Positions 3,372-15,050 of a stretch of 30,182 bases of DNA are shown in pieces. The notes under the pieces are model-generated. The model was not told where the DNA came from. It did not search any database and was given only the letters and a program-made list of their open reading frames with translations. The position numbers were made by a program, and so were the translations under genes. Source of the DNA: a virus; the IMG/VR virus record IMGVR_UViG_3300024999_001289, positions 1-30,182 of that record. One strand, 5' to 3'. Every line of letters begins with the position of its first letter. Within the stretch, counting starts at the first letter, position 1.

Positions 3372-3845
3372 ATGAGTAATTTATCTTGGGACGAATATTT
3401 CATGGGAATAGCATACATAGCATCATTAAGAAGTAAAGACCCTAAAACTAAAGTAGGTTCATGTATAGTTAATCAAGATAATAGAATCATTAGCACAGGA
3501 TACAACGGTATGCCAAATGGATGTAATGATTCTATTATGCCTTGGGATAGAGCAGAAGGATTAAAAGATAAGAATTGGTATGTAGTGCATGCAGAAATGA
3601 ATGCAATATTGCATAGTAAAACTGATTTAAATAGTTGTAAAATTTATGTTACATTATTTCCATGTAACGAGTGTACTAAAGCATTAATACAATCTGGTAT
3701 TAAAGAAGTGGTGTATTTGAGTGATAAGTATAAAGATAGAGAACAAACTATAGCATCTAAATTCATGTTGGATAATGCAGGAATTAAATATAGAAAATTA
3801 GTGTCTGAGATTAGTTTTGAAGTTAATTTGAAGATTGTTGAGTAA
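3372..3845 (+). CDS. Deoxycytidylate (dCMP) deaminase, ComEB-like, 157 aa
   Basis: Converts dCMP to dUMP, feeding thymidylate synthesis for phage DNA replication. The zinc-binding catalytic signature of cytidine/deoxycytidylate deaminases is complete: HAE at residues 73-75 (zinc ligand and catalytic Glu) and PCNEC at 97-101 (two zinc Cys). The N-terminus (SWDEYFMGIAYIASLRSKDP, KVGSCIV, GYNGMP) is typical of dCMP deaminases of phages and of ComEB. Length is normal for the family. AAAGGAG lies about 12 bases upstream. No thymidylate synthase is seen in this window. A new promoter (3855-3883) begins right after the stop, so this gene ends a transcription unit. Confidence 0.92.
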   Translation: MSNLSWDEYFMGIAYIASLRSKDPKTKVGSCIVNQDNRIISTGYNGMPNGCNDSIMPWDRAEGLKDKNWYVVHAEMNAILHSKTDLNSCKIYVTLFPCNECTKALIQSGIKEVVYLSDKYKDREQTIASKFMLDNAGIKYRKLVSEISFEVNLKIVE

Positions 3846-3854
3846 AAATAATGA

Positions 3855-3883
3855 TTGACAAATAGTTAATAGAATGATAAAAT
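3855..3883 (+). promoter_or_regulatory. Sigma-A promoter with extended -10
   Basis: TTGACA (3855-3860), a 17-base spacer, and TGATAAAAT ending at 3883 (extended TG plus TAAAAT at 3878-3883). The stretch AATAGAATGATAAAATAAT is shared with the promoter at 11871-11899, so these two form a promoter family. It serves the small gene cluster starting at 3913. Confidence 0.7.
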
Positions 3884-3912
3884 AATAATAAAATAAAGGA
3901 GGGTAATAAACT

Positions 3913-4182
3913 ATGATAGACAAAAAGAATGGTTATATATCTAATAATTTTGAAGAATTAGAATGTTTAAAAGATGAAATAATTAAAGGCGTACTTCAAC
4001 ACGATAAGAAAATATACATAATTTTTAAAAGTGGATTTTCTTTTTGGTTTAATTCTAATGGTGCTTTTGCAATTGAATTGACCAATGTAACTCAAGATAT
4101 TTTAAATAATCATAAAGGCAAATTAATATCAACTAAAAAAGCAATTGAAAATGTATTAAGATTAGCAGGAGAAGAATTATGA
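3913..4182 (+). CDS. Small hypothetical protein, 89 aa
   Basis: No family recognised. The protein looks like a small alpha/beta domain: an N-terminal helix (FEELECLKDEIIKGV), a pair of strands (KIYIIFKSGFSFWFNSNGAF) and a C-terminal helix (TKKAIENVLRLAGEEL). The strand pair and helix resemble small phage regulators in general shape only. Very strong ribosome binding site AAAGGAGGG about 10 bases upstream, and it is the first gene behind the promoter at 3855. After its stop, the same frame continues as a decayed reading frame (see 4189-4346). Confidence 0.7.
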   Translation: MIDKKNGYISNNFEELECLKDEIIKGVLQHDKKIYIIFKSGFSFWFNSNGAFAIELTNVTQDILNNHKGKLISTKKAIENVLRLAGEEL

Positions 4183-6614: not shown

Positions 6615-7082
6615 ATGTTATTTTGGACAGTAGTATTTTTTACATTCTACTTAGTGATATTTGCAAAAGGAAATCCAATGTATAACAATATTATTAAAAC
6701 AGGAGAATTAACAATAAAACTTTATGAACAAGGTAAAACAGAAAAAGAAATAAACAAAGAGTTATTTGATAATAATTGGCCTTACTTATTTTATATTCCA
6801 TTGGTTTTAGGTACATTTATTTACTACATAAATGCTTTGACAGTAGATATTTATAAATATCCTACAATTGGAATTTTAGTATATTTAATTTTTACAATGG
6901 CATTTTCTAAATATAGTAATAATAAATCTAAAAATGATTTAACTACCGAAGGGGGTAGACAAAAGTATAGAGAACAACTATATAAAATTCGTAAAAGAAC
7001 ATTTAAAGGTATGATTAAACAATTAATATTTTTAAGTTATTATGGATATATGTTTTATCTTTTAGTGTTTGTGATAAGATAA
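6615..7082 (+). CDS. Membrane protein with about four transmembrane segments, 155 aa
   Basis: Hydrophobic segments are visible at about residues 2-17 (FWTVVFFTFYLVIFAK), 54-71 (WPYLFYIPLVLGTFIYYI), 81-97 (YPTIGILVYLIFTMAF) and 134-153 (IFLSYYGYMFYLLVFVIR). The first loop is charged (EQGKTEKEINKELFDN) and the loop before the last helix is basic (KIRKRTFKGMIK), so that loop is probably cytoplasmic. No family recognised. Ribosome binding site AAAAGGAGAG about 8 bases before the ATG. Its stop codon lies immediately before the structured RNA at 7088-7208. Confidence 0.7.
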   Translation: MLFWTVVFFTFYLVIFAKGNPMYNNIIKTGELTIKLYEQGKTEKEINKELFDNNWPYLFYIPLVLGTFIYYINALTVDIYKYPTIGILVYLIFTMAFSKYSNNKSKNDLTTEGGRQKYREQLYKIRKRTFKGMIKQLIFLSYYGYMFYLLVFVIR

Positions 7083-7087
7083 AAATT

Positions 7088-7208
7088 TATGATAAGAAGT
7101 GTATCGAAAAAAGGTTAACAGTAGGCATAATAAACCAGTAACCTTGAGAAACCCACAACCTAGAAATAGGTGGTCGAAGCTGTTAGATTATGCACACTTC
7201 TTATTATA
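7088..7208 (+). ncRNA. Candidate structured RNA with pseudoknot pairing
   Basis: The outer stem pairs 7092-7102 (ATAAGAAGTGT) with 7194-7204 (ACACTTCTTAT), 11 perfect bp, extendable to 15 with one G-U. Inside, AAGGTTA (7111-7117) pairs with TAACCTT (7139-7145). ACCTA-GAAA-TAGGT (7158-7171) is a GNRA-type tetraloop hairpin. GCATAAT in the loop of the first inner stem (7125-7131) pairs with ATTATGC (7187-7193) directly before the outer stem, giving a pseudoknot. AACAG (7117-7121) with CTGTT (7180-7184) is a further alternative helix. An open frame runs across it, but that reading lacks a ribosome binding site and the real gene starts at 7243. It may be a riboswitch, ribozyme or trans-acting RNA; I recognise no class. 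Confidence 0.65.
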
Positions 7209-7242: not shown

Positions 7243-7410
7243 ATGATTGAGAAATCTTGTTATACTTGTATAAGTGCTGGTGTATCAAAAGAAAAGTATC
7301 CTTGTAATAAATGTCATAATCAAAATAACTGGAGATATAGGTATAGTGTTCAGTCATTATGTTTGGTTGGAGTATGTTTAATTGTTGTTGGAATTATTAT
7401 TGTTTTATAA
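7243..7410 (+). CDS. Small Cys-rich membrane protein, 55 aa
   Basis: Starts at ATG 7243 with AAAAGGAG about 9 bases upstream. A longer in-frame reading from 7099 is rejected because it has no ribosome binding site and runs through the structured RNA. The N-terminal half holds two CxxC pairs (CYTCISAG and CNKCHNQNNW), and the C-terminal half is one transmembrane helix (SLCLVGVCLIVVGIIIVL). It is therefore a tail-anchored zinc-ribbon-like protein. Function unknown. Being directly downstream of the RNA fold, its translation could be controlled by it. Confidence 0.65.
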   Translation: MIEKSCYTCISAGVSKEKYPCNKCHNQNNWRYRYSVQSLCLVGVCLIVVGIIIVL

Positions 7411-7755: not shown

Positions 7756-7764
7756 ATACATATG

Positions 7765-7810
7765 TACTACATATAGTGGGTGTAATAGTAAAATACCACT
7801 ATATGTAGTA
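7765..7810. repeat. Inverted repeat, copy 2 of 3 (ATATAGTG family)
   Basis: TACTACATATAGTGG (7765-7779) is perfectly complementary to CCACTATATGTAGTA (7796-7810), a 15-bp stem with a 16-base loop. It starts 9 bases after the stop of the preceding gene. The arms share the ACTATATGTAGTA core with the copy at 15068-15109 and the ATATAGTG core with 2349-2392. Five A residues follow (on this strand), so it would have a U-tract only for transcription from the other side. Confidence 0.7.
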
Positions 7811-7863
7811 AAAAATTAAAATAAAAGACACATTTGATCGTAAATTAGAAAGGAATACATAAT

Positions 7864-9014: not shown

Positions 9015-10256
9015 ATGTTAGAATTAAAAGGTAAATACAATACAGCTAAAGTTTTTACTGATAATATTGAGCAAACTGCTATATCTCAGATAATTGAATT
9101 ATGCAACCAACCATTTGTTGAAGATGGTAAAATTAGAATTATGCCTGATACTCATTATGGTGCAGGATGCGTAATAGGATTTACTGCTAACTTAGGAGAT
9201 AAAGTAATACCTAATCTTGTAGGTGTCGATATCGGATGTGGAATGTCAACATTTGAATTAGGAAAAGTAAATATTGATTTACAAAAATTAGATGATATTA
9301 TTCGTGAATTTGTTCCATCTGGTAGAAACATACACAGTAGTAGAATGTCTGACTTTGATGAAATGAGAAAATTGCACTGTTATAGATCGCTTAAAGATAC
9401 GAAAAGAATTGAACGAAGTATAGGTACTCTTGGTGGAGGAAACCATTTTATAGAAGTTAATAAAGATAGTAATGATAATTTATATCTTGTTATTCACTCA
9501 GGAAGTAGAAATTTAGGAAAACAAGTAGCAGAATATTATCAAAACATTGCTATTGATTTATGTAGTGGTAAAAGTGATTATTATAATCAAAAAGATAAAT
9601 TAATTGCTGATTATAAAAAACAAGGAAAAAGAAATGAAATTCATAATGCATTAAAAGAATTAGAGAAAAAGTATAACAACTTACATCCATCTTATCCAAA
9701 AGATTTATGTTTTCTTTCTGGTGAATGGAGAGAGAAATATTTACATGATATGAAAATATGTCAAGAGTATGCTACTTTAAATAGATATATCATAGCAGAT
9801 ATTGTATTATTAAAACTTGTAAAAATAGAGGAAATAACTAAAAAAGAATATCATAATATTAAAATATTTGAAACAATTCATAATTATATTAATTTTAAAG
9901 ATAATATTATTCGTAAAGGTGCTATCTCTGCTTATAAAAATGAAAAAGTTTTAATCCCTATTAATATGCGTGACGGATCAATTTTAGCTATAGGTAAAGG
10001 TAATCCAGATTGGAATTATTCTGCCCCTCACGGTGCTGGTAGATTAATGAGTAGAAGTAAAGCAAAAGAAAATATTATTATGGAAGAATATCAAAAATCT
10101 ATGGAAGGTATCTTTACTACTTCTGTTGGTATTCATACACTTGATGAAGCACCTATGGCATATAAATCTATGGATGAAATTATTAATAATATTGGAGATA
10201 CTGTTGAGATATTAGATATTATTAAACCTATTTATAATTATAAAGCAGGAGAATAA
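9015..10256 (+). CDS. rtcB: RtcB-family RNA-splicing/repair ligase, 413 aa
   Basis: Joins RNA 2',3'-cyclic phosphate or 3'-phosphate ends to 5'-OH ends using GTP and Mn2+. All key blocks are visible: VDIGCG (71-76, metal Cys 75), GTLGGGNHFIEV (137-148, metal His 144), HSGSRNLG (161-168, metal His 161), ETIHNY (His 279) and SAPHGAGRLMSR with the guanylylated His at 339. The length matches the E. coli enzyme. In a phage the likely job is mending tRNAs or other RNAs cut by host anticodon nucleases or toxins; this is inference. It has its own consensus promoter (8957-8985) and a strong AAAGGAGG. No archease gene is seen. The next gene begins 35 bases after the stop. Confidence 0.93.
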   Translation: MLELKGKYNTAKVFTDNIEQTAISQIIELCNQPFVEDGKIRIMPDTHYGAGCVIGFTANLGDKVIPNLVGVDIGCGMSTFELGKVNIDLQKLDDIIREFVPSGRNIHSSRMSDFDEMRKLHCYRSLKDTKRIERSIGTLGGGNHFIEVNKDSNDNLYLVIHSGSRNLGKQVAEYYQNIAIDLCSGKSDYYNQKDKLIADYKKQGKRNEIHNALKELEKKYNNLHPSYPKDLCFLSGEWREKYLHDMKICQEYATLNRYIIADIVLLKLVKIEEITKKEYHNIKIFETIHNYINFKDNIIRKGAISAYKNEKVLIPINMRDGSILAIGKGNPDWNYSAPHGAGRLMSRSKAKENIIMEEYQKSMEGIFTTSVGIHTLDEAPMAYKSMDEIINNIGDTVEILDIIKPIYNYKAGE

Positions 10257-11929: not shown

Positions 11930-12718
11930 ATGGTAAGTATAAATGGTTATTCAATTGGTAATGAATGCTACCCAAATAATGAACGAATATTTAAAACTAA
12001 AGAATTCGATACAGATGATTTCACAATTGAAATTAAATATGAAACAGATATTGATATTTCAATTCTTATTATGTGTAAAAAATATTTAGATGATAAATTC
12101 AATAATCCAAAAGTAACTTTAATAATGAAATACGTTCCCTATTCTCGTATGGATAGAAATATTAAAGGTTATATGTTTAGTTTAAAATATTTCTGTCAAT
12201 TGATTAATGATTTAAAATTTCATAGAGTTATAGTATTAGATATACATTCAAATGTTGCAACTGCATTGTTAGATAGATGTGAAGAAATTGATGTTAATCA
12301 ATACATATATAAAATATTTAATGAAGTTTATGTAGATTATGTATTTTATCCAGATGCAGGAAGTATGACTAGATATTCTAAAACATTTAAAACAAGTCAA
12401 CCATATTTTTATGGAAATAAGAAAAGAGATTTATCTAATGGCAAAATTACTTCATATGAAATTGTAGATTGTCCTGATATACAAAATAAAAATATATTAA
12501 TCATTGATGATTTATGTGCTTTTGGTGGAACATTTAAATTAGCAGCAGAAAAATTAAAAGAGAAAGGTGCAAATAATATATTTTTATATATTTCTCATTG
12601 TGAAAATTCTATATATAAAGGTGATTTAATTAAATCTGGTTTAATTTCAAAAATATACACAACTGATAGTATTTTAAGTGATTGGTCAAGTAAATTGATT
12701 TATAATATAGAATATTAA
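11930..12718 (+). CDS. PRPP-synthetase-like enzyme, candidate ADP-ribose pyrophosphate synthetase (Adps), 262 aa
   Basis: The fold of ribose-phosphate pyrophosphokinase (Prs) is evident: VPYSRMDR (69-76, the ATP-side loop), VLDIHS (102-107, metal His), PDAG (141-144) and the phosphate loop IIDDLCAFGGTF (191-202). It is about 50 residues shorter than cellular Prs, as in other phage members. The usual DDMIDTGGT loop, which holds the 5'-phosphate of ribose, here reads DDLCAFGGT, so the substrate side differs. With a NAMPT-like gene in the same operon, the best reading is the first enzyme of the phage NARP1 pathway, which pyrophosphorylates ADP-ribose. Plain PRPP synthesis (a NARP2-like or salvage role) is the alternative. 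First gene behind the promoter at 11871; strong ribosome binding site. Confidence 0.85.
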   Translation: MVSINGYSIGNECYPNNERIFKTKEFDTDDFTIEIKYETDIDISILIMCKKYLDDKFNNPKVTLIMKYVPYSRMDRNIKGYMFSLKYFCQLINDLKFHRVIVLDIHSNVATALLDRCEEIDVNQYIYKIFNEVYVDYVFYPDAGSMTRYSKTFKTSQPYFYGNKKRDLSNGKITSYEIVDCPDIQNKNILIIDDLCAFGGTFKLAAEKLKEKGANNIFLYISHCENSIYKGDLIKSGLISKIYTTDSILSDWSSKLIYNIEY

Positions 12719-12736
12719 AATAAAAGGAGATTAAAT

Positions 12737-13162
12737 ATGAAAAAGAAAAAAGCATTTCTTGGAGGTACATGTGCGGATAGTAAATGGAGAAATGAATTAA
12801 TACCAAAATTAAAAATTAATTATTTTAATCCTGTGGTAAAAAATTGGACACCAGAATGTCAAGAAGAAGAAATTAGACAAAGAGAAACTTCTGATTTTGT
12901 ATTATACACTTTAACTAGACCATATAGTACGTATTCTATTGCAGAAGCAGTAGATGATAGTAATAAAAGACCTGAAAAAACAATTGTTTGTATTTTTAAT
13001 GAATTAATAGATTATAAATGGTATACAAAATTGGCTATGAGTAAACAAGAATTAAAACATTTAGATGCAGTAGGTAGATTAGTAGAAAGAAATGGTGGAA
13101 AATATTTTAAATCGTTAGATGAAGTTGCAGATTATTTGAATAGTAAAGTTAAAGAAGGTTAA
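12737..13162 (+). CDS. Nucleoside 2-deoxyribosyltransferase-like protein, 141 aa
   Basis: The N-terminus KAFLGGTCADSKWRNEL (5-21), then YFNPVVKNW (29-37), RQRETSDFVLYTLT (47-60) and STYSIAEAVDDS (64-75) match the Nuc_deoxyrib_tr-like family. The conserved Glu is at 70. The family breaks N-glycosidic bonds of (deoxy)nucleosides or nucleotides and transfers the sugar; many small members are uncharacterised. Within this operon it could act on a nicotinamide- or ADP-ribose-derived compound, or be a nucleotide sensor; both are inference. Ribosome binding site AAAAGGAG lies about 9 bases upstream. Three bases separate its stop from the next start. Confidence 0.8.
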   Translation: MKKKKAFLGGTCADSKWRNELIPKLKINYFNPVVKNWTPECQEEEIRQRETSDFVLYTLTRPYSTYSIAEAVDDSNKRPEKTIVCIFNELIDYKWYTKLAMSKQELKHLDAVGRLVERNGGKYFKSLDEVADYLNSKVKEG

Positions 13163-13165
13163 ATT

Positions 13166-13588
13166 ATGGATTATTATTTAGATGATAATAATGCAGTTAA
13201 TAGGTTGGTAGAAGAATGGAGAAAATACGGCAAAATAATTATCGGATATGACTTTGATGATACTGTGTTTGACTTCCACCAGAAAGGCAGAACATATAAA
13301 AATGTAATGAATCTTTTAAGGGAATGTAAAAAATTAGGTGCATATTTTATTGTTTTTACTTGTTGTGGAGAAGATGAATATGACAAAATTAAAAACTATC
13401 TAAATGAAAATAAGTTACCATATGATAAGATTAATGAAAATATTGACTTTGTAAAATTTACAGGTAGAAAAGTTTATTACAATATTATGCTTGATGATAG
13501 AGCAGGGTTGTCATCTGCATATAAAGTATTATTAAAAACTATTAAAATAATTAAAAAAGAAAAGGAGAATGATACATATGAAAATTAA
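13166..13588 (+). CDS. HAD-superfamily phosphatase-like protein, 140 aa
   Basis: Motif I of HAD hydrolases is clear: IIIGYDFDDTVFDF (24-37), with the nucleophile Asp and the second Asp two residues on. FIVFTCCGED (about 57-66) is motif II with Thr, and NIMLDDRAG (about 110-118) is motif IV with paired Asp. A Lys of motif III is likely within KFTGRKVYY. The cap is minimal, as in small phage-encoded nucleotidase-like HADs. A nucleotide or sugar phosphate is the likely substrate. Located three bases after the deoxyribosyltransferase-like gene; its last 11 bases overlap the start of the NAMPT-like gene, so translation is coupled. Confidence 0.8.
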   Translation: MDYYLDDNNAVNRLVEEWRKYGKIIIGYDFDDTVFDFHQKGRTYKNVMNLLRECKKLGAYFIVFTCCGEDEYDKIKNYLNENKLPYDKINENIDFVKFTGRKVYYNIMLDDRAGLSSAYKVLLKTIKIIKKEKENDTYEN

Positions 13589-15050
13589 TCCAATGTTATT
13601 GACAGACTTTTATAAAATTTCTCACCGTATTATGGCAGAAAAAGGTATTCAAAAAACATATTCTACATTTACACCGAGATCATCAAGAATTAAAGGTATT
13701 AATGATGTAGTATTTTTTGGACTACAAGGTTTTATTAAAGAATATTTAATTGAATATTTTAATGACAATTTCTTTAATAAAAACAAACAAGAAGTTATTG
13801 CTGAATATAAAAGAATTATTAAATTTACTTTAGGTGATAACTGTGCAGATACAGAACATATTGAAAAATTACATGATTTAGGATATTTACCAATTAAAAT
13901 ATGTGCTTTAAAAGAGGGAACAGTAGCACCTATTAAAATACCTTTATTTACAATAGAAAATACACATAATGAATTTCACTGGTTAACAAATTACATAGAA
14001 ACATTAACGAGTGCTTGTATGTGGAAACCTATAACTACAACAACTATAGTTAAAAAATACAGAGAAATATGTGAAAAGTGGGCAGAAAAAACTTCTAATA
14101 TAAAAGACCATCTTCAATGGCAATGTCATAATTTTAGTTATAGAGGTATGAGTGGGAATGAAGATGCTATAACTACTGGAGCAGGACAATTATTATATTT
14201 TACAGGGACAGATACTATTCCAAGTATTTGTTATTTAGAAAAATATTATAATGCAAATGTGGAAAATGAATTGGTTGGAGCAAGTGTATTGGCTACAGAG
14301 CATAGTATCCAATGTCAATATCAAGATGATTTAAAATATTATAAAAGAATGATTAATGAAGTAGCACCTGAAGGAATTATTTCAATTGTATCTGACGGTT
14401 ATGATTATTGGAATGTTATTGGAAATATCATACCACAATTAAAAAATGATATTATAAATAGAAATGGTAAGTTAGTTGTCAGACCAGATACGGGAAATCC
14501 AGTAGATATTATTTGTGGTGATAAAAATTCTACTGATGAAGTGATTAGAAAAGGTTCTATTGAATCATTATGGGATACATTTGGTGGTACAATTAATTCA
14601 AAAGGTTATAAAGTATTAGATTCACATATTTCTTTGATATATGGAGATGCGATCACTCTTGAAAGAGCAGAAGAAATATTTAAACGATTAGAATTAAAAG
14701 GATTCTCTAGTGAAAATGTTGTGTTTGGTATTGGTTCTTATTCATTAGGATATTACACTAGAGATTCATTTGGTATAGCTATTAAAGCAACACAAGTAAT
14801 GATAGATGGTAAAGAAATAAATATTTTTAAAGATCCAAAAACAGATAGTGATAAAATTAAAAAATCACAAAAAGGCAGAATTGTTGTTTATAAAGATGAT
14901 TTTCATGAAATTAGATATAAAGATGAATTAACACAAAAAGATTGTAAAAAGTTTAATAAAATTAATTTATTAGAAGATGTATTTATTGATGGAAAACTAG
15001 TTAGAGATGAAAGTTTAGCAGAAATTAGAAAAAGAGTGTTGAATAATTAA
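13578..15050 (+). CDS. Nicotinamide phosphoribosyltransferase-like enzyme, candidate Namat of NARP1, 490 aa
   Basis: NAMPT family throughout. TDFYKISHR (9-17), GLQGFIKEYLI (48-58), SYRGMSGNEDA (177-187), FTGTDTI (208-214, substrate Asp 212), ATEHSI (239-244, catalytic His 242) and VVRPDTGNP (300-308, Arg 302 and Asp 304) correspond to the human residues Asp219, His247, Arg311 and Asp313. Length is normal. I start at 13578 because AAAGGAG at 13561-13567 is 10 bases away, while the upstream in-frame ATG at 13569 is only 1 base away. It condenses nicotinamide with an activated ribose. Paired with the Prs-like gene and with no NMN adenylyltransferase nearby, direct NAD+ formation from ADP-ribose pyrophosphate is the favoured reading. 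Last gene of the operon. Confidence 0.9.
   Translation: MKINPMLLTDFYKISHRIMAEKGIQKTYSTFTPRSSRIKGINDVVFFGLQGFIKEYLIEYFNDNFFNKNKQEVIAEYKRIIKFTLGDNCADTEHIEKLHDLGYLPIKICALKEGTVAPIKIPLFTIENTHNEFHWLTNYIETLTSACMWKPITTTTIVKKYREICEKWAEKTSNIKDHLQWQCHNFSYRGMSGNEDAITTGAGQLLYFTGTDTIPSICYLEKYYNANVENELVGASVLATEHSIQCQYQDDLKYYKRMINEVAPEGIISIVSDGYDYWNVIGNIIPQLKNDIINRNGKLVVRPDTGNPVDIICGDKNSTDEVIRKGSIESLWDTFGGTINSKGYKVLDSHISLIYGDAITLERAEEIFKRLELKGFSSENVVFGIGSYSLGYYTRDSFGIAIKATQVMIDGKEINIFKDPKTDSDKIKKSQKGRIVVYKDDFHEIRYKDELTQKDCKKFNKINLLEDVFIDGKLVRDESLAEIRKRVLNN

Follow-up and report, generated by a model that had tools for sequence, protein, structure and literature searches.

GOLLD and ROOL are structured RNAs of phages and prophages, often encoded near tRNA islands (PMC12286853), and their function is not established (PMC12286853). 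These RNAs run to hundreds of nucleotides (many GOLLD RNAs exceed 800), form RNA cages and are listed in Rfam. Phage T4 encodes two small stable RNAs, RNA C and RNA D (species 1 and 2), within its tRNA cluster, of which RNA C contains a T-arm-like sequence. Among self-cleaving ribozymes, a compact and strongly conserved core can occur in different circular permutations, and twister is known in permuted forms. The hammerhead is likewise known in permuted forms (PMC10085705).

The RNA analysed here lies at positions 7088–7208 of a 30,182-nt stretch of viral DNA (IMG/VR record IMGVR_UViG_3300024999_001289), which as a whole is called the window. An earlier note, made from the letters alone, had described it as a compact pseudoknot-type RNA that matched no known class. 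Like GOLLD and ROOL, it is a structured phage RNA, often near tRNAs; however, the RNA and its relatives are only ~80–130 nt long, with a conserved core of about 80–100 nt, and the Rfam models of GOLLD and ROOL do not match. It shares with RNA C and RNA D a small size and, in many relatives, a place within a phage tRNA cluster, but it lacks the T-arm-like sequence of RNA C, and the two models of the family, R1 and R2, match nowhere in the T4 genome, so the T4 RNAs were rejected as members. With the hammerhead and twister it shares the compact, permuted core, although cleavage by this RNA is conjectural and no Rfam ribozyme family matches it. A search of Rfam 15 with the window and 15 related loci, as the earlier note had proposed, reached no family but tRNAs at the gathering scores and gave only chance matches at E ≤ 10. 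No prior description was found in the open-access literature; an earlier account elsewhere is possible. The RNA family is absent from Rfam 15 and previously unlisted, and together with the strong covariation described below, this bears out the view of a genuine compact pseudoknotted RNA of no known class.

The element in the window

The element lies between two genes. Its parts and neighbours are as follows.

6615–7082, + strand: upstream gene, 155 aa, no PHROG match; its stop lies 5 nt before P0
7088–7102, + strand: P0 5′ strand, outer closing stem, 15 continuous pairs with 7194–7208; local to the window phage
7103–7105, + strand: P1 5′ strand AUC, partner GGC starting at 7124; covariation family-wide
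7106–7111, + strand: conserved single strand GAANAA (GAAAAA in the window), in 109 of 113 members, N being A, C or U
7112–7117, + strand: P2 5′ strand AGGUUA, pseudoknotted with P1 and P3, pairs with 7139–7144
7118–7123, + strand: conserved single strand NNAGUA (ACAGUA in the window); AGUA invariant in 24 diverse sequences, and fixed in most search patterns
7125–7131, + strand: P3 distal 5′ strand GCAUAAU, exact complement of 7187–7193
7136–7138, + strand: P3 proximal 5′ strand CAG, pairs with CUG at 7180–7182
7139–7144, + strand: P2 3′ strand UAACCU, pairs with 7112–7117 (family alignment)
7145–7157, + strand: conserved joint NGAAANACCC (UGAGAAACCCACA in the window), from a tally over members
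7158–7171, + strand: P5 hairpin ACCUA-GAAA-UAGGU; in permuted relatives it is open and serves as the closing stem
7180–7182, + strand: P3 proximal 3′ strand CUG, partner 7136–7138 and not 7119–7121
7187–7193, + strand: P3 distal 3′ strand AUUAUGC, exact complement of 7125–7131
7194–7208, + strand: P0 3′ strand, outer closing stem, pairs with 7088–7102
7243–7410, + strand: downstream small Cys-containing protein, 55 aa, with its own ribosome-binding site AGGAGAA; no PHROG match
9015–10256: rtcB, RtcB-type RNA ligase (phrog_1075, E = 1.9e-136)

All the complementarities named in the earlier note were found where it had placed them. Its closing stem of 11–15 bp is P0, which is a local feature of the window copy, not kept in relatives and outside the family core. 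Its internal 7-bp stem (AAGGUUA/UAACCUU) is present, and six of the pairs, those of P2, are kept in relatives; its GAAA-tetraloop hairpin is P5, and its 7-bp loop-to-tail pairing is the distal part of P3 and is exact. As it had also observed, the element is less AT-rich than its surroundings (G+C 36–39% vs. 22–26% in the flanks) and lies 34 nt upstream of the start codon of the small protein. The predicted fold of a 161-nt stretch is more stable than 200 of 200 dinucleotide-preserving shuffles (z = −4.2). The conserved core at 7101–7193 is matched by model R1 with E = 3.5e-16, a rough value for a sequence that is itself one of the 24 used to train R1. The window copy has a weak P1 (C-G, U-G). 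Neither a promoter nor a terminator was recognised at this copy, and a longer open frame from GTG 7099 runs through the RNA but is not needed.

The earlier note further proposed a crossing helix (7117–7121 with 7180–7184, AACAG/CUGUU) that would allow switching. These strands are indeed complementary in the window; however, their switching role found no support, since they are paired in 76.7% of cases vs. 75.7% in shuffled controls and their covariation (0.117 vs. 0.108 shuffled) is no better than chance. The CUG at 7180–7182 pairs with the CAG at 7136–7138 within the same fold, so that no switch is needed.

Elsewhere in the window, a long AT-rich hairpin (UACUACAUAUAGUGG ... CCACUAUAUGUAGUA) followed by AAAAAA occupies a gap between genes at 7764–7812, and the region 11930–15050 carries a ribose-phosphate pyrophosphokinase gene and a nicotinamide phosphoribosyltransferase gene, an NAD-salvage pair.

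Relatives of the RNA

A blastn search with a 136-nt query against 50,697 phage records found Cellulophaga phages of three families and, weakly, a Klebsiella phage, and the conserved core used for pattern scans was derived by reading these matches. With successive changes or loosening of the pattern, scans of IMG/VR gave 37, 39, 49 and at least 119 contigs, false matches included. Matches to loose patterns at L050, L052–L057, L060–L068, L070, L071, L073 and L074 were discarded by eye as one repeated, apparently coding sequence; L048 and L069 were likewise discarded by eye. Further blastn searches added T5-like, T4-like, jumbo, Vequintavirinae, Rhizobium, Pseudomonas, Vibrio and Bacillus phages, and 113 distinct members were parsed after removal of duplicates. 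The carriers are phages of Proteobacteria, Bacteroidota and Bacillota (T4-like, T5-like, crAss-like and jumbo), with named taxonomy taken solely from opened records; in every phage record opened, the RNA is without annotation.

A strict pattern run on 84,980 bacterial and archaeal genomes gave a single match (L090), a chance one: by eye the rest of the fold is missing, and its genome has no match to the models. In 398 genomes from a single phylum, searched by model with strict filters and no positive control, there was no match. Because of the types of phage involved and the near absence of the RNA from bacterial genomes, the carriers are presumably lytic. The E-values of the models are rough throughout owing to a short calibration.

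Architecture and covariation of the family

The conserved fold consists of the helices P1, P2 and P3 and a variable hairpin P5, with P2 pseudoknotted to both P1 and P3. In the order found in the window, the 5′ part runs P1 5′, GAANAA, P2 5′ (RGGUUN), NNAGUA, P1 3′, P3 distal 5′, ~4 nt (often AAAC) and P3 proximal 5′ (SAG); the 3′ part continues with P2 3′ (NAACCY), the joint NGAAANACCC, the P5 hairpin, a variable joint usually ending in GC, P3 proximal 3′ (CUS), UUAG and P3 distal 3′.

The covariance check in homologous phages suggested in the earlier note gave a clear answer. In 24 diverse sequences, 94.7% of the helix cells are paired vs. 70.2% in shuffled alignments, and pairing falls to 50% or less when the partners are slid by 1–3 columns. 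Double changes occur in 99 cells vs. 30.5 shuffled, and the covariation score is 0.553 vs. 0.132. P3 proximal, which occurs as CAG/CUG, GAG/CUC, CUG/CAG and AAG/CUU, is 100% paired in this set, with one pair split between 12 C-G and 12 G-C, and the outer and inner pairs of P2 are G-C or A-U and A-U or U-A, respectively. In P3 distal, 6 of the 6 pairs scored have double changes. Family-wide, the mean P1 run is 3.73 bp vs. 1.28 shuffled, and the complementarity of the P5 strands in relatives has a mean score of 16.46 vs. 10.89. A second alignment, of permuted members, gave the same picture and added covariation in P5. The search patterns fix part of the core, and its conservation is therefore partly imposed, but most covarying positions fall outside the patterns.

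A held-out test pointed the same way, since 20 of 20 loci unused in model building match both models over the full length. Held-out members with GAG have the partner CUC in all but one case (L196), the CUC of L194 being read directly from its sequence, and two further P2 pair types appear among them, G-C (L176) and C-G (L206).

When all members were compared, the strands flanking P5 (the P2-P5 joint and the P5-P3 joint) were seen to change together in sets: GACCCGAAG occurs with GUGAAGC, CACCCAAAG with GAGUACGC, GACCAAGG with AUGCUCGC, and UACCCAUUUAGA with GAUCGUC. This co-change suggests a swappable non-canonical motif.

Circular permutation and tRNA context

Members of the family come in two gene orders that are circular permutations of each other. 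In the permuted order, assigned to 68 of 112 members (a few, e.g., L111, may still sit in the wrong class), P5 is the open closing stem, often of 8–11 bp, and the junction that bears P0 in the window becomes a linker. The two orders differ in their surroundings: a same-strand tRNA lies within 15 nt of 40 of the 68 permuted members vs. 4 of the 44 in the standard order, that of the window (Fisher p = 5e-8, a value that overstates the independence of the cases because the members are related). Seventeen permuted members are flanked by tRNAs on both sides. Between permuted members and their neighbouring tRNAs, the spacers are mostly of 3–5 nt downstream and 0–1 nt upstream. In the standard order, a U-run directly follows P3 in 6 of 44 members vs. 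a background of 1.7%, and several copies come immediately after a stop codon or just ahead of a terminator. One tRNA array that carries the RNA (L075) also contains, at 3825–3915, a possible suppressor tRNA, with the anticodon CUA, which ARAGORN labels Pyl.

A copy inside a phage tmRNA

In the crAss-like Cellulophaga phage phi14:2 (KC821624; L005, 2792–3263), the RNA lies within an unannotated tmRNA, which is also called by ARAGORN and which matches RF00023 with E = 4.2e-17 and 46.0 bits, just under the gathering score of 47. The family RNA follows the tag reading frame and precedes the tRNA-like 3′ part, taking the place of the pseudoknot domain (PK2/PK3). Related phage tmRNAs (Calle_1, FpV4), however, lack the family RNA, and elsewhere the family is found outside tmRNA; phi14:2 is the sole carrier in which a tmRNA surrounds the RNA, and in the window no tmRNA was found. 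The tag reading frame of the phi14:2 tmRNA is possibly long. The Flavobacterium phage FpV4 (KT876724; L189, about 560–970) has an unannotated tmRNA-like gene that resembles the annotated one of Cellulophaga phage Calle_1, and ARAGORN made no call on it.

Copy number and mobility

Forty whole records were searched with both models, and nearly all of the 38 positive phage records contain one copy, including jumbo phages of 345–366 kb; the exceptions among the 40 are one record with a second, weak match, L059, with none over the threshold, and T4, with none. The RNA also appears as a discrete insertion. In Mosigvirus, a clean insertion of 97 nt separates two tRNAs: Escherichia phage LF82-41 agrees with mogra on either side of the site, yet between its tRNA-Met and tRNA-Arg precisely the 97 nt of the RNA are missing. 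The Cellulophaga phages phi19:1 and phi19:3, which belong to different families (Assiduviridae and Pachyviridae) and infect the same host strain, share an almost identical RNA plus terminator, whereas their flanks diverge at both edges. No constant neighbouring gene was found among the opened records. Computation shows the fold, the family, its two permutations, its presence in almost always one copy per genome and its transfer as a self-contained unit.

Possible functions

The earlier note likened the RNA to riboswitches or small ribozymes. The former likeness is weakened by the range of places in which the RNA is also found: it stands amid tRNA genes, within a tmRNA and, at the ends of operons, directly ahead of terminators, and no one gene regularly follows it. 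A constant placement upstream of functionally related genes was not seen, nor was a conserved alternative pairing. A cis-acting mRNA element, i.e., a riboswitch or leader in the window and a 3′-end protecting or processing structure elsewhere, would fit the window copy ahead of its start codon and the standard-order copies directly after stop codons or before terminators. However, many copies between tRNAs have no coding gene to control, and the suggested alternative helix lacks covariation. Few of the settings are accounted for by a riboswitch or by an element that protects mRNA; a riboswitch is unlikely, and a cis-acting element in general improbable as the account of the family. A ribozyme that cuts phage transcripts, including tRNA-array precursors, self-cleaving or otherwise catalytic and with the conserved strands as its putative active site, is a serious rival on anatomy alone, given the compact double pseudoknot with many invariant loop bases, the natural circular permutation that parallels hammerhead and twister, and the position between tRNAs. 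Yet the RNA is almost always present in one copy per genome, where several might be expected of a general processing element, it moves together with a terminator, cleavage would split the tmRNA that contains it, and no known ribozyme family matches. The rtcB gene of the window had prompted the idea of a cleaved-and-ligated circle; RtcB is present in only 1 of the 40 records, so this link was rejected, and the missing association also tells against cleavage. A ribozyme is hence considered rather unlikely, and it is just as doubtful that the RNA is a new catalytic class of lytic phages, self-cleaving or trans-acting, permuted by its origin in tRNA arrays or operons.

A selfish mobile RNA cassette, spread by recombination at RNA-gene loci and of no benefit to the phage, would also fit the patchy distribution and clean insertion of the RNA, its transfer between phages that share a host but are unrelated, and its occurrence inside a tmRNA. 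However, no protein or known mobility mechanism travels along, and loop and helix bases are deeply conserved across phages of several bacterial phyla and show strong compensatory change, which speaks for selection on function; the selfish cassette is the least probable account. The explanation that seems probable, on present grounds, is a stand-alone gene of lytic phages for a trans-acting small RNA, which would be made from a longer transcript, have a stable core and act through its conserved strands. That transcript would be an operon in the window and a tRNA-array precursor in many relatives. Array copies may be released with the tRNAs by tRNA-maturation nucleases, and standard-order copies may be left at operon ends. 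The core of ~80–100 nt, with conserved A-rich strands between its helices, would then persist as a stable RNA and, judging from its contexts, could use its invariant loops to act in trans on a partner from the host or the phage. The field of action would most likely be translation or tRNA biology, or counter-defence: the tRNA and tmRNA settings weakly suggest translation, and the patchy, mobile distribution weakly suggests counter-defence. At the window copy, its place just upstream of a gene would allow a cis role as well.

Significance

Kept by unrelated phage families in several bacterial phyla, almost always in single copy and with strongly conserved bases, the RNA is presumably useful to the phage. 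It also gives an uncommon example from nature of an RNA whose circular permutation follows the way in which its gene is expressed. The RNA is easy to test, since some carriers (mogra) infect E. coli K-12, the gene is ~100 nt long and LF82-41 is a natural relative without it. The family also gives a way into the question of why other RNA genes are kept by phages among their tRNAs.
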